Of a stretch of DNA of 64,000 nt, positions 1-63,420 are shown in pieces. Source of the DNA: Spirogloea muscicola (taxonomy: Eukaryota > Streptophyta > Zygnematophyceae > Spirogloeales > Spirogloeaceae); contig WELB01000126.1 of assembly GCA_009602725.1 (NCBI GenBank), positions 205,864 through 269,863 on the forward strand, read 5' to 3'. The notes below the pieces were generated by a model, which had not been told where the DNA came from, searched no databases, and saw only the letters and a list, made by a program, of their open reading frames with translations. The position numbers and the translations under genes were made by a program. The first letter of the stretch is position 1. Every line of letters starts with the position of its first letter.

Positions 1-1075
1 TGATGATGGGTGCCCTGAATGTCGCCAATGGGTACTCGTATGCCGAGCGGCCTACACTGATGTTTGAGCTTATTGGCTCGGAGGCCTCAGTGGGCGAGCA
101 GACGGCGCGCGTTCAGCACATTGTTGAAGCGCATGGGGGTTCAGAGTTTGTTTTCGCAAACACTCCAACGGAGAAGGAGGAGCTCTGGCGGGCCCGAAAG
201 GAGGCCCTCTGGGCGGCGTACGTGCTCAAGCCCGATTGCGAAGCCATGGTCACGGTGAGATGCAGTACCAATCTCGTATCCACTGCATAGCGATGTATCA
301 TCAGGCAACCACCTCCTTCGTGTTACCTTTCACAAATTGTCCTCACGAGGATTCTTAGGCATTGTCACTGTGAGGCTCTCAGAAGCTTATAATCAGATTC
401 GAGCAAGAGGATGCATTCTCCACCCTCAACCTCTACCTGAGGTGTATGCTTTGCGGACCCGATTTTGCGATGCTGAAATACCTCAGAAAGTGCTCAACAG
501 GACGTTTGCGTGCCCTTGTCACGGTTAGCCGACTTGATCAGCGAAACAAAGCTTGAGCTTGAGAGGAGCACGCTGCCATGTCCGATTGTGGCTCACGTTG
601 GGGATGGCAACTTCCATGTCCTCATCCTTCTGGACCCAAAGAAGCCCGAGGAACTTCGAGAAGCCTCTGACCTGGCGTCCAACATGGTGCACAGGGCCAT
701 TGCCATGGATGGTATGGTACATCACGTGTTGGATATAATGAGTTGATCCTGCTCTTTGGGCCTTTGGAGTTCTGCTGGCAGATGGCATAGCCCTCAGCAC
801 TTTGCTGACAGATAGTGAGAGTGATGCCTTCCTAGCCGAAAAGTAATAAGCGGGGCCGTTATCGCTAGTGCAAGATGAAAGTTTGAGGCCGACTTTGTGG
901 CTGTGGTGCAGGCACTTGTACAGGGGAGCATGGCATTGGCATGGGGAAGATAGAGTACTTGGAGGAAGAGCTGGGCCCCAATGCCGTGGCTACCATGGCA
1001 AAGCTCAAGCAAGCACTAGATCCTTTACACATCATGAACCCTGGAAAGGTCTTACCAAACCGTTTTTGTGTCTAG
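1..1075 (+). CDS. D-lactate dehydrogenase (cytochrome), mitochondrial, 3' part
   Basis: C-terminal part of an FAD-linked D-lactate dehydrogenase, which oxidises D-lactate (mostly from the glyoxalase pathway) and passes electrons to cytochrome c. Three exons are visible: 1-254 (open at the window edge), 501-711 and 912-1075 with a TAG stop. All introns are GT-AG and the frame is continuous. Seen: the FAD-oxidase C-terminal blocks [14 protein letters not shown] (across the first junction), the metal/FAD-binding region AHVGDGNFH, the block [12 protein letters not shown], and the near-terminal [10 protein letters not shown], which lies at the C-terminus of plant D-LDH as well. The 5' half, with the transit peptide and FAD-binding domain, lies outside the window. 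The related glycolate dehydrogenase family is less likely, because the end of the protein follows plant D-LDH. Confidence 0.85.
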
Positions 1076-1560
1076 AAGGACCAGGTGGGAGAGTCTCAAG
1101 TCGATCATAAAGATTCTTGACTCCAATACTGGTTGCTTGACCACATTTTTGCCAGATCTGGTATTGGCTAAGGTGCTTTTGGTGCATACTGAGTATGTTG
1201 AGCTGATCTTAGCAGAATTCAGCAGTTATTAAGTGCTCTTACTTGGATTCAGTCAATCATAAGGCCTGTTAAATTTCAGTTGTGTAGTGCCCTTGTGGGT
1301 TTTCCGTCACGATATACCGGTATTTTGAACTATCGGCTTGAGACTGAGTGACACAACTTTGGGCGGGGTTGCTCAGTGTCAGCTTTCTTCTTTTGCGAAG
1401 ACTTGGCAGTCAGGTCAGGCTGTCAGAGCTGTTCCTGGGTCTGGGAGCTACAAGAGGCCCATGGATGATAGGCAAACTTTTTACAAAAGCCACATCGAAT
1501 TTGTGGCTTATCAAAGAGAAGGAACAGAAGGCAGATTACCGCTTCAAAAAAGCAGACAAG
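1076..1560. other. intergenic, nothing recognised
   Basis: Downstream of the D-LDH stop. Short ORFs only, no conserved motif; presumably 3' UTR and spacer. Confidence 0.5.
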
Positions 1561-10940: not shown

Positions 10941-11796
10941 TTTCAAAGTAGAGACGCTGTGTACAGAAGCACTGTATGCAACACCAGTAAGTTGGACTGG
11001 CTGGCTCAAGTGTCGAGAGTTGGACACCTTAAGCTGGCCCAGGAGGGAGAACTTGCAAGAGCTCAAGCAATAGCATGCACCCTGATCTTATGAAGCCCGG
11101 GAATGCGCCACTCGCTTGGAATCCAACTGGTTCCCGGCTGAGGTGCAGCAGTAAGATACTGACAAAGGCAGCGGCTCTTTATGTCAGCTGCTGCTGCAAG
11201 GAGAAGCCGTCGCCGCAAGCGCCATCGGCCTGTTGTATGCTTAAAGTCCACAGCTTCGGCAGTCGCCGCAGGCCTTGCTGGACAGCGGGGGCCCGGCAGC
11301 GGCGCGGGCGCCGCGCCGGGCCGGGGCTGTGTGCCAACGGCGACTGATCGGGGAGGACACTTGACGTAAGTCACAGACGCTCGCTCGATAGTCACTCTGA
11401 TGGCAACGTACCAAGTGAACGCCACCAGAACTCCCCACCGCACGAGACCCACCAATTTGTCCACGCCGCCTGCCTCGTTGCCGTTCGAGCGCCAGCGCCG
11501 GTCGTAACCAGGATTGAGTGGCAGTGTACTGCCTGGCCTCCTGCTCCGACCACCCTAGCGCGCACCCAAGGCGCCCTCGCGCAGCGCCCGAGCCCAGCGC
11601 GGCGAGCAGCAGCAGCAATCGCGCGCCCGCTTGGAGTCGCAACACCGTCACTGCGCGCCGAGAGCTCCGGAGACTGTCCTGGAAGCCGAGGCTTTACTGA
11701 GGGCCTTGCTTGTGGAGCAGAAGCCTCACTGCTCCTCGCAAGCCGTCTGGCGATCTCTCCGGACCGGCTCCAGCCTCTAGCCGGACCACCGTGGCG
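10941..11796. promoter_or_regulatory. divergent promoter region between VIP1 and LIP1
   Basis: 856 bp separate the start codons of VIP1 (-) and LIP1 (+), so both 5' UTRs and promoters must lie here. The right half is GC-rich. A minus-strand ORF at 11241-11651 starts with a hydrophobic, signal-like stretch but has no homology I can name, and I do not call it a gene. I see no clear TATA box. Confidence 0.4.
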
Positions 11797-13863
11797 ATGG
11801 CGGGGCCGCGCTTTGTCGCCCTCCTGCAGCAGCAGCTGCAGCGGGCCGCTGGCCGCAGCCGGCAGAGCCCTCGTCTTGGGGCTGCCTTGGGGACGCCGCC
11901 ATCGCCTCTGGCTTTCCTGTCCTCCGTGGCGTGCGCGGCTCTCGAGAGGGCTCCCGGTCCCACTGGGAGCGAGGCGGCGAAGAAGCTCGCTCTCGCAGCT
12001 CTGAGGGAGCGCCTGGCTGCCGATGGCACCACGCTGATGGACTTTGCCGGGGCCACGACGGCATCCCCATATGCTGTTGAGGCCGTGCAGCCAAGGGATA
12101 GGAAGCGCAAGCCCGACTGGATGAAGCGCGTCATCCCGGGAGGAGACAAGTACACCGAGATCAAGGCGAAGCTAAGAGAGCTGAAGCTGCACACTGTGTG
12201 CGAAGAGGCCAGGTGCCCTAACATTGGTGAGTGCTGGAGTGGCGGCGAGACTGAGACGGCGACTGCCACCATCATGATCCTCGGCGACACCTGTACTCGT
12301 GGCTGCAGGTGATCATGCTTCAGCCAGTTGGCGCTGGCAAGCGTCAGAGAAGGGTGTCTCTCAGCTTGCTTGTCTACCCTGTGTATAAGCTTTCCAGTGC
12401 TTCTGAAGAACCACATGCCCGATGAGGAGACGGGCAGGTTGCTTTAACAGCTCGTTGACATAGGCACACTGTTAGACCAGAGAGGATAACATGTCTCTAC
12501 CAGCCAGATAGTGCTTGGGCAGGGCTTCTTTCACAGCCCCTGCCTTATATTGGAAGAGCTTTTCCTTGTGACTCCTAACGTTCTGTGATGGTGGATCAGG
12601 TTCTGTGCTGTCAAGACATCTCGTGCTCCCCCAGCACCCGACGTCGATGAACCCAGGAAGGTGGCTGAGGCACTTGGAGAATGGGGGCTTGATTATGTGG
12701 TGTTGACCAGCGTTGACAGAGACGACCTGCCAGATCAGGGCAGCGGGCACTTTGCAGAGACCATTGAACGCATCAAGACGAGAAAGCCTAGCATGCTTGT
12801 AGAGGCTTTGGGTAAGATTAAATCTAGTCTCTCCATACAAGCAGCACTTGTGGAGATGAGGCATATGTTGATTGCGATTACTGCACGATGATTAGAGCAT
12901 GAATATTCCCCATGAAGTGGTCAACCCCACCAAGACTTAGACATAGTTGCAGTCCGCACAATTTGCCAGGCGGCAATGACGCAATTCTTCCTCAATGTGG
13001 GTTTTGAGCACTAATCACTTCGCTGCGGCCACCTGCAGTACCGGACTTTCGAGGAGACCGCTCTTGTGTGGACCTTGTTGTCAACGCGGGACTGGATGTA
13101 CTAGCTCATAATATTGAGACTGTAGAAGAGCTCCAGCCATATGTGCGAGATATAAGGGCCAACTTTGAGCAGTCCCTAAGTGTCCTTCGCATGGCCAAGG
13201 AACTAGGGCCATCTCGAGTATTAACGAAGACATCGATCATGCTTGGCTGTGGGGAAACTCCAGACCAAGTCTTCAGGTGCGTGATGTCAAAGGGGCTGTA
13301 GCCATTGTGTGCATCTGCTGTGAAGCTGGACTGCTTGGAGCACTGAGCAACTTTTTCAGGCTGAGTGTAATCGTCAAGCCTGATCATCAAGCTGGTAGTA
13401 GCATGAGAGGTGAAGTTCTTGATTTAATGTGGCAGGTCGATGGAGAAGGTGCGCGCAGCCGGGGTAGACGTGATGACCTTTGGCCAGTATATGCGACCAA
13501 GCCGCAAGCATATGCCAGTCTCTGACTTTGTCACGCCCGAAGCATTTGAGAGGTGGAGGCAAGTTGGCGAAGACATGGTATTCTCTTGATTCTTGATCCA
13601 CCGTGTTTGCTTTTTGTGAGGTGATCACGCCTGGGACATGGGGGGCCTGGCAACGGTTGCCTTTCTGATAAATTTGACTTCTTTTGATCGCACGGCAACA
13701 CGACTCCTACCTGAAGAGGACCACCGCATGGGCGTTATTTTTGCAGGGCTTTCTCTACATTGCTTCTGGGCCAATGGTGAGGTCGTCCTACAAGGCTGGC
13801 GAGTTCTACATCAAGTCGCTACTTGAGCGCAATGGTCAATCTGCTGAGCCCGCTGCTGCCTAA
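11797..13863 (+). CDS. LIP1: lipoyl synthase, mitochondrial (radical SAM)
   Basis: Inserts two sulfurs into octanoyl groups on lipoate-dependent proteins (pyruvate, 2-oxoglutarate and glycine decarboxylase complexes). Exons: 11797-12308, 12600-12811, 13039-13276, 13436-13577, 13747-13863 (TAA); 406 aa. Seen: auxiliary-cluster cysteines [12 protein letters not shown]; radical SAM cysteines CTRGCRFC (split by intron 1); [27 protein letters not shown]; and the terminal serine block [15 protein letters not shown]. The first ~80 residues are Arg/Ala-rich, and [12 protein letters not shown] leads into the domain, as in mitochondrial rather than plastid forms. An in-frame ATG at 11710 would add 29 residues. 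I prefer 11797, because [19 protein letters not shown] looks like a presequence. Divergently transcribed from VIP1. Confidence 0.92.
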
Positions 13864-16640: not shown

Positions 16641-16730
16641 TCTACTTCCCGAAAGACACGTCTTGGCTGCCAGGTGTATCAATCGTGTCCGTCCGATGCG
16701 GGCCATCGCTATACGTGGAATCCATAAAAG
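16641..16730 (+). promoter_or_regulatory. candidate heat-shock promoter of the HSP20 gene
   Basis: TTCCCGAA at 16646-16653 fits the TTCnnGAA core of a heat shock element, and a TATA-like ATAAAAG lies at 16724-16730. Both are upstream of the small heat shock protein. Only one clear HSE core is visible, so this is suggestive. Confidence 0.35.
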
Positions 16731-16973
16731 CGGCATTCCTCTGCGCGGCTGCTCCGCCGCGTGCATAGCAGCTTCGCGAGCACCAGCCGTGCCTGCCACG
16801 CGAGCCCGCCCGCCAATCCCGCGCCCACCCCACTCCTTCACTCCTCCCCCCCGTCCTCACTCGCCATTTCCATTGCCAACCCGCGTCCGCCGCCGCCGCC
16901 GGCGCCGCTGCCGCCGCGCAGCAGAGTCGCTCCGCCGGCGGGCGTCGCCCGTAGCCGGAGCCGCCGCGGCGGC

Positions 16974-18200
16974 ATGAGGCCCGCGCCGTTCCGCGGCGTC
17001 GCGGAGCTGGACTCGAGCTCCGAGTCGGACGACATGGCCCCGCCGCCCCCCGGCCACCACCCGCCGGGCCGCCACCACCACCGCCACCACCACCACCACC
17101 ACCACCACGGCGGCCGCTTCGGCGCGGCGCCGCCCCACGGTGAGGACCTGCGGCCCCCGCTGGCAGCGCCGGCGGCTCTCGGCTTCCAGCACGTGCGGCT
17201 TCGCGGGCCGCTCTGCTCCTGCAATGTCTCGTCCTTGTCGCCAGCCATCGCTGGCGCCCCGACGTTGTTTGCTCATCCTTCTGAGGAGCCGCCGCTGCCG
17301 CCGTCGCTAGGCGTGCTTCTCGACCGCTCCCGCATGCAGCAGCTCGGCGTCATTGACAGTCCGGAGCCAGTCCGTGTGCCTCGCCGTGCAGAGCACCTCA
17401 GGGCCTGGCGCAAGGCCTGGAAGCAGCACTGCCGCGGCCTAGGCGGCGGCCACGCCTCGTGGCTGGCCGCCGCGCGCGGCTTCGGCCCCTGGAGCACGCT
17501 GCCGTCTGATCCCCAGCCACCCTTCCCGCCGCCAGGACCGCTGCCGCCGCCGCCGCCACCAGGGCTGCCGCCGCTGCATCATCATCACCACTTTGGCCAT
17601 CCCCACCCGCCGGGCGCAGGCAGGCCGCCGCATCCGCCGCCCCTGCCTCCGCACCTTGGTGGCTGGCTTGGCGGCTTCCCTCCTCCGCCCGGGTTCCCTC
17701 CGCCACCGCCGCACTTTGGCAGTGACACCGAGGACAACATGGAGGGTTCTGTAAGTGGGATGGTCTTGAAGATAGACATCAAGGAGACCGTGGACGCGTA
17801 CACCGTCGTCGCTGACCTGCCGGGCGTGCAGCCCGAGCAGGTGGAGGTGCAGCTGCAGGCTGATGCCGCCGCAGGCGGCAGCGTTGTACTCTCCATTGCC
17901 GGCCACCGCGAGTTGGACACCTGGGAGGAGCCCGGGAGCCTGCACCTTGAGGAGCGGAGCTTCGGCGCATTCAAGCGCCGCTTCCGCTTGCCTGCAGACG
18001 CCAGTGCTGAAGCGGCGCTCGCAGAGCACAAGCTTGGTGTGCTGACTATCACCATCCCCAAGGGGCCCGATGGTGCCGTCGGCTCCAGGGCCGCGCTGAC
18101 TGTGGTCGAGGTCCGTAGCGGCGAGCTCCTACAGCCACCGGCTGCACCACCAGTTCAGCCTGAACCGGCTGCTGCAGAGGACATGGCAGGCCATGATTGA
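16974..18200 (+). CDS. small heat shock protein (HSP20/alpha-crystallin) with long low-complexity N-terminus
   Basis: ATP-independent holdase chaperone. Single-exon ORF of 408 aa from the ATG at 16974. The frame is open back to 16761, but the added 71 residues are Pro/Ala/Arg low complexity. The alpha-crystallin domain occupies about residues 262-385: VDAYTVVADLPGVQPEQVEV, then LEERSFGAFKRRFRLP and GVLTITIPKG, matching class I plant/algal HSP20. A typical member is 150-200 aa. Here some 260 residues precede the domain, including an eight-His run, long Pro runs (GLPPLHHHHHFGHPHPP) and a basic patch (HLRAWRKAWKQH). No intron is seen, as is common for HSP20. An HSE-like site lies upstream. The role of the N-terminal arm (oligomerisation, metal binding, condensates) is unknown. 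Confidence 0.85.
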   Translation: MRPAPFRGVAELDSSSESDDMAPPPPGHHPPGRHHHRHHHHHHHHGGRFGAAPPHGEDLRPPLAAPAALGFQHVRLRGPLCSCNVSSLSPAIAGAPTLFAHPSEEPPLPPSLGVLLDRSRMQQLGVIDSPEPVRVPRRAEHLRAWRKAWKQHCRGLGGGHASWLAAARGFGPWSTLPSDPQPPFPPPGPLPPPPPPGLPPLHHHHHFGHPHPPGAGRPPHPPPLPPHLGGWLGGFPPPPGFPPPPPHFGSDTEDNMEGSVSGMVLKIDIKETVDAYTVVADLPGVQPEQVEVQLQADAAAGGSVVLSIAGHRELDTWEEPGSLHLEERSFGAFKRRFRLPADASAEAALAEHKLGVLTITIPKGPDGAVGSRAALTVVEVRSGELLQPPAAPPVQPEPAAAEDMAGHD

Positions 18201-19120: not shown

Positions 19121-19883
19121 TCAGGCTGCAATCTCCTCCAGCTTCTGCTCTGCAAGGCCCTGGATGCGCTTCTCCAACTCTGGCCGGAAGTGGCGGATGA
19201 GACCCTGGATGGGCCATGCAGCTGCATCCCCAAGCGCACAAATGGTGTGACCCTCTATCTGTTTGGTGATCTCCTGCAGCATGTCAATCTCCTCGAGGCG
19301 CGCGTCACCGGCCTTCATGCGCTCCAGGATCTGCCACATCCAGGTCGTGCCCTCACGGCAGGGCGTGCACTGGCCGCAGCTCTCGTGCTTGTAGAAGTAG
19401 GCCAGGCGTGCGATCGCGTCCACCACGTCGGCGCTCTTGTCCATGACGATGACGGCGGCAGTGCCCAAGCCCGACTGCACGGCCTTGAGGGCGTCAAAGT
19501 CCATGAGCACATCGTCGCAGATGGACTTGGGTAGCAGCGGCACGGACGCGCCGCCCGGGATGACGGCGAGCAGGTTGTCCCAGCCACCGCGCACGCCGCC
19601 GGCGTGGCGCTCGATGAGCTCGCGCAGCGAGATGGACATCTCCTCCTCCACCGTGCACGGCTCGTTCACGTGGCCGGAGATGCAGAAGAGCTTGGTGCCG
19701 GAGTTGTTCTTGCGGCCGAACGACGAGAACCACTCGGGGCCGCGGCGCAGGATGGTGGGCGCCACCGCCACCGTCTCCACGTTGGTCACCGTGGAGGGGC
19801 AGCCGAAAAGGCCAACGTTGGCGGGGAACGGGGGCTTGAGCCGCGGCTTGCCCTGCTTCCCCTCCAGGCTCTCCAGCAGCGCC

Positions 19884-19916
<33 letters not shown>

Positions 19917-20433
19917 TAGTGGATGTACACGTCAAAGTCGAGGCCAGAGCCGGCGGCGTCGCGGCCCAGCAGGCCCGCGGCGTAGGCCTCCGCGCGGGCG
20001 CGGTCCAGCGCGCGGCGCTCGTTCACGTACTCGCCGCGGACGTAGATGTACGCGGCGCGGGCGCGCATGGCGGCGCCGGCCAGCAGGCAGCCCTCGAGGA
20101 GCTTGTGGGGGTCGTGGCGCAGGATCTCGCGGTCCTTGCACGTCCCGGGCTCGCTCTCGTCGGCGTTGACGACCAAATAGCTGGGCCGCCCGTCGCTGGC
20201 CTTGGGCATGAACGACCACTTGAGGCCCGAGGGGAAGCCCGCGCCGCCGCGGCCCCGCAGCCCGCTGCGCTTGATCTCGCCCACGATCCAGTCCGCGCCC
20301 TTGCCCACCAGCTCCGCCGTCCGGTGCCAGTCCCCGCGCGCGCGCGCGCCCGCCAGGAACGGGTCGTGCCGCCCGTAGAGGTTCGTGAAAATGCGGTCCT
20401 CGTCGCGCAGGCCCCCGAACGACGTCTTCTCCT

Positions 20434-20469
<36 letters not shown>

Positions 20470-20488
20470 TCTCCGACGCGGCGGCGGN

Positions 20489-20541
<53 letters not shown>

Positions 20542-20556
20542 GGCGGCCGCCGCCAT
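19121..20556 (-). CDS. NDUFV1: NADH dehydrogenase (ubiquinone) flavoprotein 1, 51 kDa subunit of complex I
   Basis: NADH-oxidising subunit of mitochondrial complex I; binds FMN and the N3 4Fe-4S cluster. One uninterrupted exon from [19 protein letters not shown] to the TGA at 19121. Seen: FMN/NADH Gly-rich loop [61 protein letters not shown]; and cluster ligands [11 protein letters not shown] followed by HTICALGD. The N-terminal presequence is interrupted at 20488-20539 by an N and 51 T, so the start and presequence are uncertain. An ATG at 20554-20556 (MAAAAA...) just upstream of the run is the most likely start. Intronless, unlike most genes here. Minus-strand GC content is very high. Confidence 0.93.
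20488..20539. other. assembly gap marker plus 51-nt poly-T run inside the NDUFV1 5' end
   Basis: A single N (20488) is followed by 51 consecutive T, flanked on both sides by GGC/GCG repeats. Read literally it would encode about 17 lysines in the presequence. Its position against an N and its contrast with the flanks suggest a gap-filling or sequencing artefact, so the reading frame across it cannot be trusted. Confidence 0.7.
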
Positions 20557-21420
20557 GGCCGCCGCTGCGCACCGCGGGGCGGCGCCCGGGCGGGCGGGGG
20601 CTGCGGAAGTGGGGGGCTGCCGATGTGGCTGCCCCGCAAGCGGGCAACGTCGTGCCCGCTGCTGCCCCCTTGCCCGAGGCGAGACGGCAGCACGGGAGAT
20701 GCCACACACCACGTCAGGGACGGGCTTGCGAAAGGGCCACCTGGGGGCCGCCCAGGGGTCAGCTGAGGGCAATCCCCAGTCCACCAAGGGCAAGCGGAAG
20801 TGAACCCAGCTCGGTACCAGTGCCGGTCCGGCACACAAGGTACCGTCCGCGCGCCACAAGGCTGACGGCCTGGCGCCGTTTTACAGGTGCAGGACGTCTG
20901 TCAGGCTTAATCGCATCACTATCTAGATGAAAAGCATGCTACGATAAGCAACATCCTCCTGGCTTGTATCTAGGATCCACGACGAGATCTGATTAATACA
21001 GCTTGACATGCATGTTTGACAATACGGTCTGAAGCGCTATCATTCTTGCTTCAAGGGGAGCTCATCAGATACCCTGGCAATAGTATATCGGCAATGTGAG
21101 GACCGATTGCAATGACTGGCTTAAAAGCATCACTAGGCACAGCCACCAAGTTAGCCATGGAGGCTCTTACGCATGTGCCTGAAGATCCAGTGCTTCTCTT
21201 GCAGTGCTGGTGACTCTCACATGTAAAGGGCAGCGAATTTGCACAGAAACCCTGTCCCAACGTGTCAGACAGTCAGAGTGGCCTGCTTGAGCTTTGACTT
21301 GCTTAACCTCATGCTATTTGACATCTCCTTTATGCCACCTCGCCTGAGTCCATCACAAGTAGCTCTGGTGCTGTGCTAGCACTCGTGCTGCAAGCCACGA
21401 GCGGCGCGGCAATAGCCGCT
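20557..21420. other. intergenic, nothing recognised
   Basis: Upstream of NDUFV1 and downstream of DDAH; it should hold the NDUFV1 promoter. No conserved ORF seen. Confidence 0.4.
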
Positions 21421-40170: not shown

Positions 40171-41377
40171 GCCGTGCATTGGACCAAGTACACTGGACCA
40201 AGTAGCCCCCGCAAGCTGGACAACCCACAACTTGGGCATATTCCCATCCTCAGTCCTCCTGTGTAGGTCTTTTTCAGAGACCCTTCCTGGAATTCTTGCT
40301 GTGCTCTCCTTATCTGTCAGTACAAGCGGAGGCCCCAGGTAGCTGCCCCGCTGAGCTCTCTCTTTGTTCAGACCAATGTTTTGACAACCCACTTGCAAGC
40401 CCACCCAGCGTACAGCAATGCACACGTTGAGTTGCCAATAATACAGTGACAGCCCCTTTGAATCGACTGGCACGCGATGCACTTGAAAGCAATGACGCGC
40501 CACCACTGCTGACATCTAAGACTGCCTTGACTACAAAGCACTATCGCAAGAACTTGCTTAGCATCCTACTTGCTCCTTTGCAGCAGCATGCCTGTATCTT
40601 TTCTAGGATGTTGTCTAGCTATAGATGTCAACCTTCACAATCACATCGACCAGAGCTGTGTTCACTGAAGCTTGAGCTAATTAGGTTATCTGAAAAGCAA
40701 ACAAGCAAAGTGCACGCAAATGCATCATAGGCTTCATCGCCTTCACCACAACAGCATGCATTTCTTAGGCCCGTAGTTCAACAACTGGCACAGATGTTGG
40801 TCCTTCCTTGTCAAATGAGGAGGAGCTAGAAGATTGACTAAATCTACAAGCTCTACTGCAGGAGTGTGCTGCACTACCTAAAAGAGCAGCCTGCACAAGC
40901 ATCTGTGCTAAGAGGGTGCACCAAGGTCAAACATAGGAGGATCCGGTGTGATGATGACTCTTGGACCGAGCACAGCCCAAACCAGGATGCCAACTCGAGG
41001 GTATCGGAACGACGACCACGACGACGACCACGACGACGACCACGACGACGTGACGACGATACAACTCTCTGAACAGCCCTGCCTACCCAAGCAGGGCAAG
41101 AGCATTCTCACTGGAGAAGGACACAACAATGACCACAGCAGTCCTCTAGGTCAGAAGCATGACAGTGTAGACCATCAAACAAGACTCAATCTTGACACAA
41201 AGCATACCAACACTGTCCCCTGTCCTCCTAACATGTAGCGACGCAGACTGATCTTGACCCATGCACCTCACACATCACTTTGACAGCTGCAAAACAGCGA
41301 TACAAAAGGTAGCAGCAGGTAAGCAAGATTGACCTAAACACTTTGACAGGACAGAAGTCAACCTGCATACCTGTGTG
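40171..41377. other. intergenic, with ACGACC microsatellite
   Basis: 41010-41060 is an imperfect ACGACC/GACGACC repeat. Otherwise only short ORFs without motifs. Confidence 0.45.
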
Positions 41378-45242: not shown

Positions 45243-46871
45243 TCAATCTTGAACCAGACGGCTGAGGGACTCAATCAGCTGCTTCAAATTGTACTTGGTG
45301 CCTGGATCGCCAGTGAGGCCACTGATGTCGCCGCTGATGCTCTGCCGACAAATGACACGCAGACGGCGCAGCAAGGAGGCGGTGAGCAGAATCGCCTTGC
45401 CTGCTGCAAGGTGAGAGCACGTCGTGACAAGGCATTGCCATGAAAGTTGCTTGTAGTAGCCTCTTCCTTCTCCAGTCTTCTCCTGTCTGCAGCTGGACCA
45501 GCACTTTGCAGCTAGGACCAGTGCAGAGCGAGGCTGCTCTACCAACATCCAGATAGTGAGCATGCCTGCTTTCTCATGCCATATCTAGCCTAAACCCGAC
45601 ATTGCCTGGACAGGCAGAACCGAGCTCATCCTTTCTTGTGTAAGAAGAGCCACGAGCTGATGGGGCTTGCATAGCGGCTCGACTTACCTCTATATGTCTC
45701 AACGTTTTGGACAGCGTCGCAACTGATTGCCGTAGAAGTTCCGTGTTCTCGCCCGTCAGTATGCTGCTGTTGAGCGTCCTGCTCGTCACAGAAGCGGTGG
45801 CACACACATAGGACTTAGCGCGACGGAGTAGGTACATTCCCATTAGGCAGCTGCACATTTTGTTACAACTTGCAGCCACGCCTTCACTTGAAGTGTGCAG
45901 GAGGAGGGCTTGCCTCAGGTCAACCGCAGCATCTGTGGCGATGGCTGTCAGTCGTTCGATGTTCTTCAGGAGCGGCCCCTCCCGCACGTCGTTGAGGATC
46001 GGCGCCAAATCGCTGGCCACATTCTCCAGCTGCGCAAGCAAGCTCCCCGGCGTCTCATCCAGGCCGTCCATCGACTTGTCGACATCGCTCAGCATCGAAA
46101 GCATGGCCAGAGGGACGGAAACGACAGCGGAATGCCGTTGTAGTGGCAAGCGGGCCGGCGCCGTACCTGCTGCAGTAGCGGGCGGGCGTCCTCCACGGCG
46201 GCGCTGAGGCGCTCGGCGGCCACAAAGACCTTGCTGACGCCCTGCTGGTCGACCTGCTTGGCGATCTTGGTGCAGATGCCGACGAGCTCGTCGAGGCTGA
46301 CGCCCTGGCGGCCGGCGATCTTCTCGCGGTCGCAGACGATGAGGCCCTCGGCGGCGCAGCCGGGGTCGAGGGGCCCCGCGGTGGGCGCAGGCATCGGCGG
46401 CTGCGGCGTGATGTCGATGAGCGTCTCGGAGATGAGCCCCGACTGGTTGACCTCCACGAGCGAGTTGCGGGGGATGACGACGTTGGCGTCCATGACCTCC
46501 ACCACGACGTCGATGCGCTCCAGCGACGGCCGGACGCCGACGACGGAGCCGACGTCGACGCCGCGGATGCGCACCGGCGTGCCGACAGTGATGCCGCAGG
46601 CCTGCGCAAACTCCAAGACCGCCTGGTAGCGCTGCGTGCGCGAGCGCACCTGGACGCCTCGTACCCACGTCAGGGTGAGCGCCAGCATGGCCACGCCCGT
46701 GACGACGAAGAGGCCCACGCCGCCCTCCCAGATGCTGCGCTTCCCGAACCCGAAGTCGCTCAGCGGCCGCGTGACCTGCCGCCACACCGCCGCCACGGCG
46801 GCCAGCAGCTGCTCCGCCGGCCCGCCCTCTCCGCGCTCCGCCGCCGCCGCTGCCGCCGCCGGCGAAGACGG
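45243..46871 (-). CDS. TGD2: TGD2, MCE-domain subunit of the plastid TGD lipid importer
   Basis: Substrate-binding subunit of the TGD1-2-3 ABC transporter, which moves ER-derived lipid (phosphatidic acid) through the chloroplast envelope. Exons: 5' end unresolved-46167, 46074-45914, 45778-45688, 45341-45243 (TGA). Seen: LSDFGFGKRSIWEGGVG, a single membrane span (LFVVTGVAMLALTLTW), MCE domain (GITVGTPVRIRGVDVGSVVG, VEVMDANVVIPRNSLVEVNQ, GLISETLIDITPQ), KVFVAAERLSAAVEDARPLL, NSSILTGENTELL, and the C-terminal KQLIESLSRLV of plant TGD2. Intron 2 has a GC donor (GCAAGC). The frame runs upstream through AERGEGGPAEQLLAAV to the N at 46872, so the transit peptide and start codon are lost in the gap. 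Confidence 0.92.
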
Positions 46872-46872
46872 N
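46872..46872. other. single-N assembly join
   Basis: Lies between the open 5' end of TGD2 and a fragment resembling another gene (OHCU decarboxylase), in GC-rich sequence. Confidence 0.7.
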
Positions 46873-46999
46873 GCGGCCGTCAGCGCCGCCTGCTGCTCTC
46901 CTTCTGACAGCCTGCGACACGGCCGCGGAGGAGGACCTTGTCAAAACGACATGGGTTGTAAGCAGTCCATGCTTCTCGAGGGCAGTGCCGGGCGGTGGC

Positions 47000-48811: not shown

Positions 48812-51350
48812 CTACGAGGCTGTGGTCAAGCCAAGGGAGTACATGAAGCGCTGCGACTGCGACCTGATCAGATGCGCCAGCGAGAATTGATTCCTGTCTG
48901 GGGGCGACTCACGTGGAGGTGAGGGTGCAAACTTGGGAGCCTCCTTCACCTGAAGGACAGTCTGCCCAATCTCCTGCCTCATGGCCTCCACCACGGCCAT
49001 GTCCACGGGCTCTCCAGAGGCATTAGTGACGTAGAAGACATTTACTGCCTTATGGTCACGGGTTGCGACATCTGCACCAGTCACAGATAAACCGTTGTCG
49101 CGGAATATGCGGGTAACATCAGACAGAAGACCCACTCTGTCTCCTGTGCACAGCTCCAAGCGCAGGCCCTGCATTGAAGCGAGGAGGATTTCAGGAAGCT
49201 GGACCAGACAGCAGACATCAGATAAATGTGACATAAAGCTAACATTTCAGATCTTGCAGGCATGCATCACAAAACCAAGGCGTCCAGATGACGACACAAG
49301 CAATAGGAGCTTCTGAAGTGCGTACAAGAATTGAATGACATGAACCACTACTACAGGCAAAGTATGTCCAGTGGCCATACCATGGGCACACGCCTCTCAA
49401 TGGCAGCCTCTAAGCACTTGACTACACGCTGACGTTCAGCTTCAGAATCCAGAGTGCATCCATCCAGATGTCGGATGTAAAACTCCTGCACAAGGACAAA
49501 ATGAGCCACCAGAAACACAATAACTACACCAACCTTAGCACCTTCAGTGATGCTGGATTGCGCCACAGCGCAATAAACACCAACCTATCTCATGAAACAG
49601 AGCAGACATATGGAATACACGCAGGGCAGAGACAAATGCATGTCTTCCATAATCCAGTTCCATTTCAAATCTACAGGCAAGTCCAACAAGCCTTACCTGA
49701 GTAGCAATATCATCCTCGCAAATAACAGAGCCGTGGAAGACCACATATTGCATGTCCGTCAAAGTGCAAACTGTGTCAAACAGCAACTTTGGACGGTCCT
49801 GACACTGGATGGTAACAATGGAGTAGGAAGTTTCAGTGCAATTGCGCACAGTAACCATGGGCCTCTTAGTGGAATTTGTACTTCGCCCTGGAGAATCCAA
49901 AGGCTCATAGTCGTGGTCTGCATGCATCATCTGGTGAAGCCTTCTCTCCGTGGTGCTCAAACCACTCCAGCAGTCCGTCTTTGTTGTTGTTCGGCCATCG
50001 TCTAGCTTCATCAGATCCTGTAGCTTCTCTGTCAACTTCTCGATCTGCAGACAAGGGGACATGCGACAGTGGCACTGCGTCTGCTCAATCACATGACAAG
50101 TCAGTGCCCTGCACAGCAATAGAAAGTCCTTCTCAATTACATTGTGGGTGGTTGACACAATCAACCGACTGACAATAAACAACGTACAAGCTCACAACCA
50201 CACTGAAAACTGGACAAGAAGCTCTTACCTTACTTCCTGCCACGGCTCCACCAGTGGCTCCATCTGTCATGTACACCACGCAAGCTGCACGCCTGTTGTG
50301 GGTCCATACCTCGGCGGCTTCCACATTGCACTCCATCTCCGCAAGAACAGCACAGATTCTTGAAAGCATGCCCGGGCGATCAGGGCCCGTCAGCTCTATG
50401 GCTGTGTAAGTGGCGGCAGATTGCACGGTCACAGCCCTTCCCAGGCAAGTCTTGACCTCCTGTACAGATACATCTCGCTTGGCTCCCAGCACCTGCAAAA
50501 AAGTTCCCCCGTTTTCAGAAATATGCTCAACTAGGCTCGAAACAAGTATATGTAGTGTTGCATAAACAGCAACGACAAGTAAGCGGACACATTTGCTACA
50601 ACACCAAAAGCATGATGCAGGCGAATGCAACGACCTGTTGGATGAAGTCGATGGTGTGCGGATCTGTAACCTTGTTGCCCAGTTGATCCCTCACATGGAA
50701 CACTGCAAAGCATGATGTTGCTTATAAGCTTGTGGGACCTGGTTATGACATGAAGGCAACAGGCGACTTTCGACTAAGCCAAAGACAAAGGCAGGCAAGA
50801 AGCAGGGTAACCTCTGAATACATCATGTTTGTATATTCTTCAGTATATGGGGGAGGAAGGGGGGATTGCATGACAATCCCCTCTGAGATGCTGTTATCTT
50901 ACCATCGACAAACCAGCCCCCATCTGAGGAGATGTACGCCTTTGAAATGCAGAGGTCCAGATCAGTGAGAAGCTGGACGACCTCCAGAAGGCACCCATGC
51001 CTGTTGGCACTATCGACCTTCACGAGCGTGGCATCAGGTTGTGTGGTATTGTCCACCACCACCCTGTCATGGAGCATTGATGACAACCTTGATGTCATCA
51101 TAAAGGTCGTCTAGCAGGATAAAGGGTGGATGACAATCCTGCACACTGTACATGACACGGATGGCCAGTGCCTTGGAGCCCTTTCGCAAGCTTGTAACAA
51201 CCACTCACACAAGAGCTTCATGACCAAGTGTACCTTGGGGGATTTATTTTCAGACTGAGCGTCTCGTACTCTGCAAAGCCGAAACAAACAATCAACACAT
51301 ATCAGATGGGTATAGAACGGCGAGGGACACACGCTCATGACTTCGTCCAT
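48812..51350 (-). CDS. ACR: ACT domain repeat (ACR) protein
   Basis: Putative amino-acid-sensing regulator of the plant ACR family. Eight exons: 51350-51333, 51268-51234, 51063-50903, 50702-50635, 50492-50229, 50044-49697, 49485-49381, 49168-48812; 451 aa, as in plants. Four ACT domains in order: [19 protein letters not shown] with [37 protein letters not shown] with [34 protein letters not shown] with [39 protein letters not shown] with [15 protein letters not shown]. Domains 2 and 3 are joined by a charged linker. All are GT-AG and in phase. The first two small exons carry little conservation, so the start (MDEVMS) is tentative; the second exon's acceptor could be shifted by 2 nt. No transit peptide is evident. 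Confidence 0.9.
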
Positions 51351-58927: not shown

Positions 58928-61900
58928 TCATGACAACATGCTAAAGAAGTTGCTCGCATATGCCATAGGCCTGACGTTGGGATGAGGCTGCATGAAGGAG
59001 CCCAAGAAGTCAGTACAGGAAGGCCAAAGACTCCTTTCACAAACGGCAAGCATGTTAGAGATGCTGAAAGCGCCAGTGCAGACCAACTCAGAACAGGTGG
59101 GCATGACTGGGTAGCCAGCAAGAACTGCTTACCACGGCAGTGAACTGCGTGAATTTGGGCTTCATCTCTGGGGCATCAAATTTGACAAATGCACCCTTGT
59201 TACCCATCTGCATTGATAACATTGATAACATATCAATGCCAGAACCAGGGGTAAAGATCCAGCTGTCTGCAGAACTACAGGTATGAACGGAGCTCACCAC
59301 TTTGCCAAGCACCGAAGGGGTGATATCACGTGTCCAGAAGTGTTAGCTAATTGTAGAGGCTACTCTCTATACACAAGCACTAACAGCACCACAATGATAG
59401 CGACTCGTTGTAACAGAGCATGTTGCCTCCCTGGAGATGCAATACCTGATCACAGTAGTTGGGGGCTGAGAAGACAGTGATGAGCTGGCCGTCATGCTCA
59501 ACCTCATAACCCTCCTGCTTCACCTCGTGCGATCTTACAACTAGCTCTACATCACAAACTCAAAAGTGGCTAATCAGGCTGCAATGCTGCCTGCCTAGGT
59601 TTGCAATGACAGTCTGCCTGTAAAGCAACAATTAGCTTACTTGCTTTGCTATGAACCCAGTAAAGCTGGCAACAATCGTTTTCTGGACGCAACACGGCCT
59701 CAGCATCTAGTGTAGACCTGTCAGGGGTAAGGCCAACAAACTCTTACCAAGGTTGTTCTCCAGCAAGAATCGTCTGGTGACATCCCGGCCAAAGGCGACA
59801 CCTACTCCCCTCTTACTAGGAGATCTACCTAGACCAGGCTGAGGATCGCTCCACAGAAGCTCGCACATCAGGCCTGGATAGAAGTACGGACTCTATGTCA
59901 GGTAGTCTCACGAACAAAGTAATGCGCGGGCTCAAAACCCACATTAAAGATTCTGTTCATGAAAGTCAAAGTAGTTGCCAAATGAAAATTGGACACGCCA
60001 AAAGCTTTCAGAAGTGCAGAGTTAGATATAAAATCGCTTTGATGCTGCAAACACGGAGCGGAGTCTTCACCTTCATCAGGAGGCTCTCGGAAGCGGTCGA
60101 TGGAGCGGATGTCATCCAACTTGACGTTATCTGTGCTAAACAAGCCCCCATGCACTACAAATACTCGTCCATTGAGCACATGCGCCAGGGGGAGGGCGCA
60201 GAAAACCTCTTGAAAGAGCTCTGCCATGGTGTTGCTGTACGTACAAAGGAGTTAAGTAACCAGACAGTATATGAAGTAATGTAGCGCCAGTGACTAGTAC
60301 AATTGACAGACATGCCTAAGGAGTCCACCATGCCAATATGCCTTGTGAAACAAGACGTCAGCAGCAGGTCTAGGCACTGTGGTCTGCACGTCAACAGTCC
60401 TGCTGCTGCCATTTGCAAGCATTGCTGCGGAATTCAAAAAGCAGTGCCAATTATGAGTAGGATATTTGCTCTTGACTTCACCCTCGAACCCATAAATCTT
60501 GTTCATGCTTTTACTCTCGTGATTCCCTCTTGATAGGTACAACCCTGCAACATGTTTTAAGGGAAGTCTGAGAGTAGTGATGCATAGTCTTGAGCAGCAT
60601 ATCAATCACAATCACCAACATTGCTTCTCAAATTCTAATGTGTTTCTGTGAATGGTGTGTGTCGTATTGTCAAATGCTGATACTAGGTGGACTGACTTCA
60701 TGAGCGGATATAGAATGTGCACCTACAAGGTCATTTTCCTGTGCATCCTAATGGCTATCTCAGAAACCTACATCCTGATTTAGTGTGCTTATACCTATGT
60801 TTATTATTATGAAGGGTAGGAATAGGTTTTTAGGGTCCTCAAGAAGTGTAGTCTCACCTGTGGGATAGAGGCACCTGAGCGCGAAAAGTGTGAATATACA
60901 TTCCACAGAGAAAGAACCACGGTCCACAAAATCCCCATTGAAGAGGTATGGATTCTCCTCAGAGGGCAGGCCATTGAGCTCAAAGATGTTAAGAAGATCA
61001 AAATACTGGCAGCAAAGTGAGGTCAATTAAAGAATCATCAGTGATTCTGTTGCTTGTGATGGGCAAGTTCCAAGGGGTAGCTCATCATTAGTTACACCTT
61101 GTCCTACTTGGCACAAATACGTCAGACAGAAGAAGCACAAGCAGAACACAGGCAGCACAGGTGGAGTTCAGATGCAACCTCACTGACTACAACTTGGAAG
61201 TTCAATCCAAAGAAGGGGAGCATCAACAGATGAAGCACGAGGAGAAGGAGCTGCTAACGAAGATACTGTAACTGCTGGACTGTAACTTGTGGACGTGCTC
61301 AGACACAGCCATGGTGGCCAAATACCTGGCCATGTATGTCGCCGCAGACTGTGAATTGCTTCCCGTCTGGGATACTGACATCTACCAGCGTTGGTGTTGA
61401 ACGCAGCATGTCTCTAATTTGCATAAGTATTTGGAAAGCATACCTAAAATTACACACGAAATCTTAAGCTCTAGCTTAGGCATGCACCAAGACAGCAGCT
61501 TTGACTTCTAAGAGGCAGATTTGGCAGACAGATTGTTTAGTCGAGAGAAGCATGTCAGCGGGGGCCCATTAGAAGAACCATGAACAGCCTAGCCACTCTA
61601 CTATTTGGAGCAGTAAGAGTGGTCAAAGTTTGTGCATTACCTCCTATGAAGGGGCTTCTGGTTTTTGAAGTCCTCTAGCATCTGCTTGACAAAATCAATC
61701 GTCACACCCGTACCCTCTATCCTCGCACCCATGTACGAGGACTCCACTTCTGCAAGTAAAAGCAAGCGTTGGACTGATTGGAAAAACCTTGTACACATCA
61801 GATATCTACTTAGTCTTCTTGCACTGTCGCAAGTCAAGCTCCATCTTATCCTAACCTTAATCAAGCAGCACTACTCAGTATGTGGATGGGTTTTACCCAC

Positions 61901-63420
61901 GTCAGATACTCTACAGGTCATAGTCTGCCTGAGTTACCCAATGATGGTAGTCCAAGGGCCTCTATTTCATCCTAGTCAACTCACCGATACTTGTATACTC
62001 AATTGCATCAGCAACAGAGACATGGTCAGGGTCGTCGATGGCAATGGCCTCCTCAAAGCGCAGCTTCTGAACGGCTTTTTCGCAGTCCTTGAGCTTCCGT
62101 TTGGCGTCCGGGTCATTTGGCGCAATCTTGGCCACCTGCCAGAAAAGTTTGCAAAATACAGCACATTCTCCCATAAGCTCTTGACGCCGTGCCGTTTGGC
62201 ACCACACCGACTAGCGATGCCTAGCTGCCCGGCAAACCTCTTCTCCACTCATGCCAAAGAAGATTGTCTTTGAAGATTGTCACCACCTAACTCTCAGTGC
62301 CGTTTCTGCAGGGCTCAAATACACATCACCAATCCACATAGGCCTCCACTGCTTGGTGGCAAGCTGTCTACCAACTTAGCCATCCACTTAGAGTGCAGAC
62401 GGGCTTCAAATGACGAAGAGCTGTCAAGTGCAGACAGGCTGTCCGAGGCCAGGTCCTCTGCCTGATTGAGCTGACCAAGAGCCTGCCAAGCCATACCCAC
62501 CTGCCGGAAGTCTTTGAGGGCATCCTTCAGCTTGGCCATGGCCAGATAAGCAGTGCCCCGGCGGTAGTAGCCCTGCAGCAAGCTCCACACAGATACAGGA
62601 GTCAGAGTAGGGCAGCACTCGTTTCGTAGAGCAGCATTCGTTTCGGCATGTATTGTCCAAACGCCTGTCGATGTTGGAGTACAAAGGACAGGACACTGCC
62701 CCAAACAGTGTCCATCGAGGTGTTGCATGTACGTGTACCTCCTGACAGCAAAGATAGTAGCGTCCAAGATCATCAAAGCCTGTCCTGTTATCAGCGGAGC
62801 AGTGAGATCCTAAGCACTGCACCTTGATGTAGCCAGGGTTGAGCTCAATCGCCCGCGACGCATCGTCGATAGCGCTGCCATACTCCTCGAGCTTCGTGTG
62901 CGCAAATGCCCGGTTCGCCCAGAAGATTGCGTTGGTCGGCTCGAGCTCAATGGCCTGGTCGTAAAGCTCCACAGCCTCAAAGAAGCGGTGCTCTGCACAC
63001 GCCGTGCAGGAAAACCTTGCCAAGCCCATCAAGACCTGAGATTTACGGCAGGTATAGTCCTGCTCAATTATGCTGCGGAGGCGACCTGGCCTCAGTCACG
63101 ACGCTTTGTAGGTACTGATGCGCTACACCAATCTTGCCAGCTCTTGCAGACGCGAATCCACTGCCAACCCACAACCAGTCATGACGGCTTGTAGCCAGAA
63201 CCCTGGCCAGATGTCTGCGTCACGCTGTCGATAGAGCGCAAACAGCGGGGAGCACAGGCAGGGCTGCCGCCACGCCGTCGCAGCCAGCCCCGCCGACGCT
63301 GCTGCCAGAGCGCTCGAGGCTGCGGGCCAGGCGCATGCCTTGGAAGGCGACGTTGGCGGCGCGCTTGAGCTCCTCGGCACGCTCCCCGCTGCCCTCAGCA
63401 GGACCAGCCCCCTCGGCCAT
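58928..63420 (-). CDS. PP5: serine/threonine protein phosphatase 5 (TPR-PP5)
   Basis: HSP90-associated phosphatase with an N-terminal TPR domain and a PPP catalytic domain. Thirteen exons: 63420-63339, 62992-62823, 62572-62501, 62135-61985, 61749-61641, 61443-61326, 61005-60858, 60544-60466, 60240-60071, 59873-59748, 59546-59446, 59207-59133, 58987-58928; 486 aa. Seen: TPR helices ([58 protein letters not shown]), linker [15 protein letters not shown], then PPP metal and catalytic motifs [33 protein letters not shown] and FSAPNYCD, and C-terminal [11 protein letters not shown]. Intron 1 uses a GC donor; intron 8 is AT-AC (60241-60465). Start: the only ATG before the TPR. Confidence 0.95.
60241..60465 (-). 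other. AT-AC (U12-type) intron in PP5
   Basis: Transcript-sense 5' end AGCAA|ATATCCTA (U12 donor consensus ATATCCTT), 3' end TTTGTAC|GTACAGC. A branch-like TTACTTAAC (60251-60259; U12 consensus TTCCTTAAC) puts the branch A about 11 nt from the 3' end. Removing exactly this interval gives [18 protein letters not shown], colinear with PP5. I found no GT-AG alternative that keeps the conserved residues and the frame. Confidence 0.8.

Follow-up and report, generated by a model that had tools for sequence, protein, structure and literature searches.

U12-type introns with AT-AC ends, as described in plants and animals, begin with the donor ATATCCT, carry the branch core CTTAAC near the 3' end and terminate in AC, and their positions +8 to +11 follow a T-rich consensus. 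Rare AT-AC introns of U2 type also occur and are removed by the major spliceosome. The alga studied here, Spirogloea muscicola, belongs to the Zygnematophyceae, a group generally regarded as sister to the land plants.

Among streptophyte algae, 166 minor introns were reported for Chara braunii and 110 for Klebsormidium nitens, in a study whose main text mentions neither Spirogloea nor Mesotaenium nor Zygnema (Larue and Roy 2023, PMC10639083). An earlier survey detected no U12 introns in Chlamydomonas (Bartschat and Samuelsson 2010, PMC2846911). For the human system, suppressor tests are described in which GG14/15 of U6atac and CC5/6 of the 5' splice site were partners (PMC4980772). Our literature search returned no report of minor introns in Zygnematophyceae, most subscription papers lying outside its coverage, and an earlier report is possible; it also returned no paper joining U6atac with chlorophytes and, for Klebsormidium, only Larue and Roy (2023).

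The gene for protein phosphatase PP5 in S. muscicola contains an intron that shares the donor, branch core and AC terminus of plant and animal U12-type AT-AC introns, but reads ACTC at +8 to +11, unlike the T-rich consensus. We assign a probability of roughly 0.85 to the reading that this is a U12-type AT-AC intron which would be excised by a retained minor spliceosome.

Results

The PP5 gene and its AT-AC intron

The analysed stretch of DNA, referred to as the window, comprises 64 kb (C126:205864-269863). The PP5 features located in it were:

58928..63420, minus strand: PP5 gene of 13 exons and 12 introns, 486 aa (scripted hand exon assembly; PP5 chain match)
63338-62993, minus strand: GC-AG intron of the PP5 gene (exon assembly)
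60465..60241, minus strand: U12-type AT-AC intron, 225 nt, phase 2 (signals, reading frame, s316 paralogue, protein alignment)
60465-60458, minus strand: 5' splice site ATATCCTA, continuing CTCATAATTGG (first 31 nt the same in the s316 paralogue)
60259-60251, minus strand: branch-site motif TTACTTAAC (counterpart AGACTTAAC in the s316 paralogue)
60242-60241, minus strand: 3' splice site AC (sequence read directly)

By their ends, ten of the introns were GT-AG, one was GC-AG and one AT-AC. The original prediction had placed an AT-AC, U12-type intron at 60241..60465 without naming the strand, which is the minus strand, and the signals were indeed present. The donor ATATCCTA, in its longer form ATATCCTACTC, is of the RTATCC type, and TTACTTAAC deviates by one mismatch from the branch consensus TTCCTTRAY, with 10 nt between its last C and the intron end (expected spacing about 10-15 nt). 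The predicted repair of a PP5-like protein was borne out as well: removal of 60465-60241 leaves the junction codons AGC AA/G TAC, and residues 13-485 of the spliced product align to the full-length PP5 chain 7obe (E 4.4e-241), gapless at the junction; the alignment takes in both the TPR region and the PPP catalytic domain. Reading through the intron would introduce two in-frame stop codons.

When both strands were scanned for donor, branch and acceptor under relaxed criteria, the window yielded four candidates, one of them PP5, whereas 20 Markov-shuffled windows averaged 0.6; the PP5 signals by themselves are therefore only moderately improbable. The other three sets lie at 1018-1155 (+), 40594-40819 (+) and 48702-48476 (-), with about one mismatch from consensus per site.

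The gene corresponds to C126:264791-269283, coordinates equal to those of the published model SM000126S26339 (s126:264791-269283, minus). The second best database protein was a PP5 paralogue, SM000316S12293 (s316:27000-31545, plus). Tags beginning with SM000 are assigned to S. muscicola in two papers. When the s316 DNA was read directly, it contained the same AT-AC intron, with the first 31 nt identical and the branch core CTTAAC and terminal ACTTAACTCCTTTGTAC retained. The two copies share 89% identity across a 380-nt region including exon parts, the middle of the intron having diverged, and the s316 branch site AGACTTAAC is weaker (6.2 vs 13.0 bits in our own matrix). The exact repair of a conserved reading frame, together with conservation in the paralogue, makes the intron call firm. 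Judged by its sequence, the PP5 AT-AC intron is almost certainly real, and it adds one more example of an already known intron type.

Exons of other genes in the window were recognized with Pfam:

11701-12309, plus strand: lipoyl synthase N-terminus exon
16728-18197, plus strand: HSP20 exon
19124-20713, minus strand: complex I 51K exon
46092-46940, minus strand: MlaD exon
49547-50191, minus strand: ACR9-like ACT exon (below cut-off)

For the complex I protein, solved chains with a match were numerous, and it was left out of the placement of the DNA; the 51K frame enters a lysine-rich stretch adjoining an N in the assembly.

Genes of the minor spliceosome

Rfam searches covered the 153-Mb assembly in 471 contigs. 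They gave four matches to U11 (46-60 bits, cut-off 39), three to U12 (80-81 bits, cut-off 53) and three to U6atac (83-86 bits, RF00619, cut-off 33; model positions 1-126), so that all three RNAs are represented above their cut-offs (4, 3 and 3 genes). Three copies of each would fit the genome triplication described for S. muscicola. The motif TATCCCA, with a chance expectation of 0.005 per 110 nt, stands upstream of nine of the ten genes, at -76/-77 in U11 and U12 and at -68/-69 in U6atac; it resembles the plant upstream sequence element. T runs terminate the U6atac genes, which lie on C40, C69 and C294. The fourth U11 (C439:1913-2051) lacks TATCCCA and has the lowest score (45.8 bits), and for these reasons it is probably a pseudogene.

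Of the spliceosomal RNAs to be expected under the original prediction, U11, U12 and U6atac were thus found. For U4atac, 48 of 1771 candidates were scored and the assembly gave no Rfam match at E 10, a weak negative. Equally weak is the result for PDCD7, the sole minor-specific protein tried, which gave no match with two candidates and no control detected. The proposed retention of a U12 system is supported by the snRNA genes in the assembly and would be nothing unusual in a streptophyte; U11, U12 and U6atac may well be expressed and remove the PP5 intron. The contrast drawn with Chlamydomonas does not apply, since Spirogloea is a zygnematophyte within the Streptophyta, where minor introns are reported for two algae; a chlorophyte origin of the DNA is ruled out by the coordinates of SM000126S26339.

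Other minor introns in the genome

The genome was surveyed with exact donor patterns, and the counts given here apply to those patterns. The pattern ATATCCTTTT gave 105 matches (76 for the reversed pattern), of which 100 were read and one (L094) was a supported intron. Located at C111:209329, it measures 142 nt and has AT-AC ends, and the sequences on its two sides form one open frame; an AT-AG alternative at this place was dropped, as AT-AC preserves the longer open frame. With GTATCCTTTT there were 79 matches (reversed 114), and the 50 that were read included one supported intron (L185) and one probable U12-type intron (L183, C38:96861). L185, at C40:124134, is a GT-AG intron of 253 nt with the branch ATCCTTGAC; it interrupts a WNK kinase domain whose reading frame is restored exactly by its removal, the flanking protein matching WNK3 (E 5.4e-12). 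The reading frames support L185 and L094 as U12-type introns; by branch score alone, neither is outstanding.

The branch 11-mer TTTCCTTAACT occurred 18 times (reversed 138), and none of the 18 places, all of which were read, contained a convincing intron. Taken together with the lack of a clear branch-site excess over shuffles at canonical donors (100 AT and 40 GT sites), this suggests that textbook minor introns are few in S. muscicola. A donor-like site deviating at one position accompanies three of the TTTCCTTAACT places (L019, L024 and L032); in L019 (C29:663756) it reads GTATCCCT and lies 295 nt upstream of TTTCCTTAACT, a possible minor intron. A longer stretch that includes gtgccTTTCCTTAACTCC is common to five of the 18 (L021, L028, L029, L031 and L032, near position 1500) and seems to be a dispersed repeat.

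An altered box in U6atac

The U6atac genes of S. muscicola match RF00619 over its full length and keep GAGAGAAGGUUAGCA, but all three carry GCC at positions 12-14 in place of the AAG of the Rfam consensus. In the alignment, UGAGCCGAGAGAAGG stands opposite the consensus UGAAAGGAGAGAAGG, with no insertion or deletion. As the genes fit the family profile despite GCC, we call them a variant U6atac.

In the canonical register, U6atac would keep the pairs U4-A16 and C5-G15 with each of the four distinct donors (PP5, L094, L185 and the only probable L183) and lose those at +6 and +7. Both positions are unpaired in all four, and continuous pairing of U6atac to +4 to +7 of the 5' splice site was not found. 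Three donors with T at +8 to +10 could still pair with U6atac there; L094, L185 and L183 were picked by donor pattern and are therefore uninformative on variation at these positions. The best predicted U6atac duplexes are weakened from -6.9..-8.2 to -2.8..-4.1 kcal/mol. With the PP5 and L094 donors, the predicted optimum lies in a shifted register. The predicted duplexes of U11 stay at -4.7..-6.3 kcal/mol and those of U12 with the branch site at -3.6..-7.7 kcal/mol.

A new pairing between GAG (10-12) of U6atac and CUC (+9 to +11) of the PP5 donor was considered and is not supported: CTCA is absent at this place from the L094, WNK and L183 donors, and none of the 20 places read among the 141 matches to RTATCCTNCTCA was a convincing intron. 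The reversed pattern gave 38 matches, so that RTATCCTNCTCA occurs in excess.

These observations may mean that the minor spliceosome of S. muscicola runs with a U6atac without the canonical +6/+7 pairing, while its introns and U11 are still canonical, a tentative reading that falls slightly short of even odds. As part of it, and with the same reserve, the second check of the 5' splice site, the one made by U6atac, would be relaxed or assumed by proteins in this lineage, perhaps accompanied by a shrinking set of minor introns. Alternatively, the GCC form may not be the working one: its three genes may be silent, or the assembly may lack an existing canonical U6atac. This is a serious contender, although we regard it as rather doubtful. 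The retention of CCT in all donors found, as a fit to canonical U6atac, would agree with it, and the division of the assembly into 471 contigs, with runs of N even in the window, leaves room for a missing gene. Against this alternative stand three full-length copies of 83-86 bits that have the upstream element and end in a T run. The genome search with AGAGAAGGTTAGCA, a sequence that canonical U6atac would match too, also speaks against it, having returned four places: the three GCC genes and one without U6atac context. We infer from the sequences that the GCC genes are the working U6atac and that the pairing is truly relaxed.

Published gene models

The assembled PP5 protein is identical to SM000126S26339 at all positions where both have residues. 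At the AT-AC site, both SM models lack ten conserved residues that are present in PP5 of Klebsormidium, Closterium, Sphagnum and Amborella (the four aligned) and in chain 7obe. The deletion is reproduced exactly by another pair of splice sites:

60489..60235, minus strand: alternative in-frame GT-AG intron (reproduces the ten-residue deletion of the models)

An ordinary U2-type intron between these sites, with the AT-AC signals arising by chance, would be in frame and consistent with the published models of both the gene and its paralogue. We consider it very improbable, because it deletes residues found in the four other PP5 proteins and in 7obe, because SM000126S26339 also treats parts of two further introns as exon and because the AT-AC signals are preserved in the s316 paralogue. 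The GT-AG pair was accordingly judged an annotation artefact; most likely, the gene finder permitted only common intron ends and missed the intron for this reason. The published annotation thereby makes the AT-AC intron into a false deletion within the core phosphatase. In the published model P0001, part of the GC-AG intron (62993-63338, -) is taken as exon.

Discussion

Under the mechanism that we propose, U11 would pair through its 5' end (AUAAAGGG) with UCCU at +4 to +7 of the PP5 intron, and U12 (GUAAGGAA) would pair with the branch site. U6atac would subsequently take the place of U11 at the 5' splice site, and GCC at its positions 12-14 suggests that the choice of this site would lie mainly with U11 and protein contacts. 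Excision by the major spliceosome could be argued from the poor U6atac pairing and the lack of a U4atac match (E 10, 48 of 1771 candidates scored), yet it is hardly credible, given the U12-type combination of an ATATCCT donor with a CTTAAC core placed close to the 3' end at a fixed spacing, kept in the paralogue, and the U11, U12 and U6atac genes in the assembly.

With a U12-type intron in PP5 and a retained minor spliceosome, S. muscicola would join C. braunii and K. nitens, two streptophyte algae with minor introns according to Larue and Roy (2023). Unlike these two, it is a zygnematophyte; its introns with textbook signals look few among the patterns surveyed.

The PP5 intron adds sequence evidence of minor splicing in the Zygnematophyceae. 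If the GCC genes are the working U6atac, S. muscicola would present a natural disagreement between U11 and U6atac over one splice site, and the need for U6atac pairing could be tested without engineered mutants.
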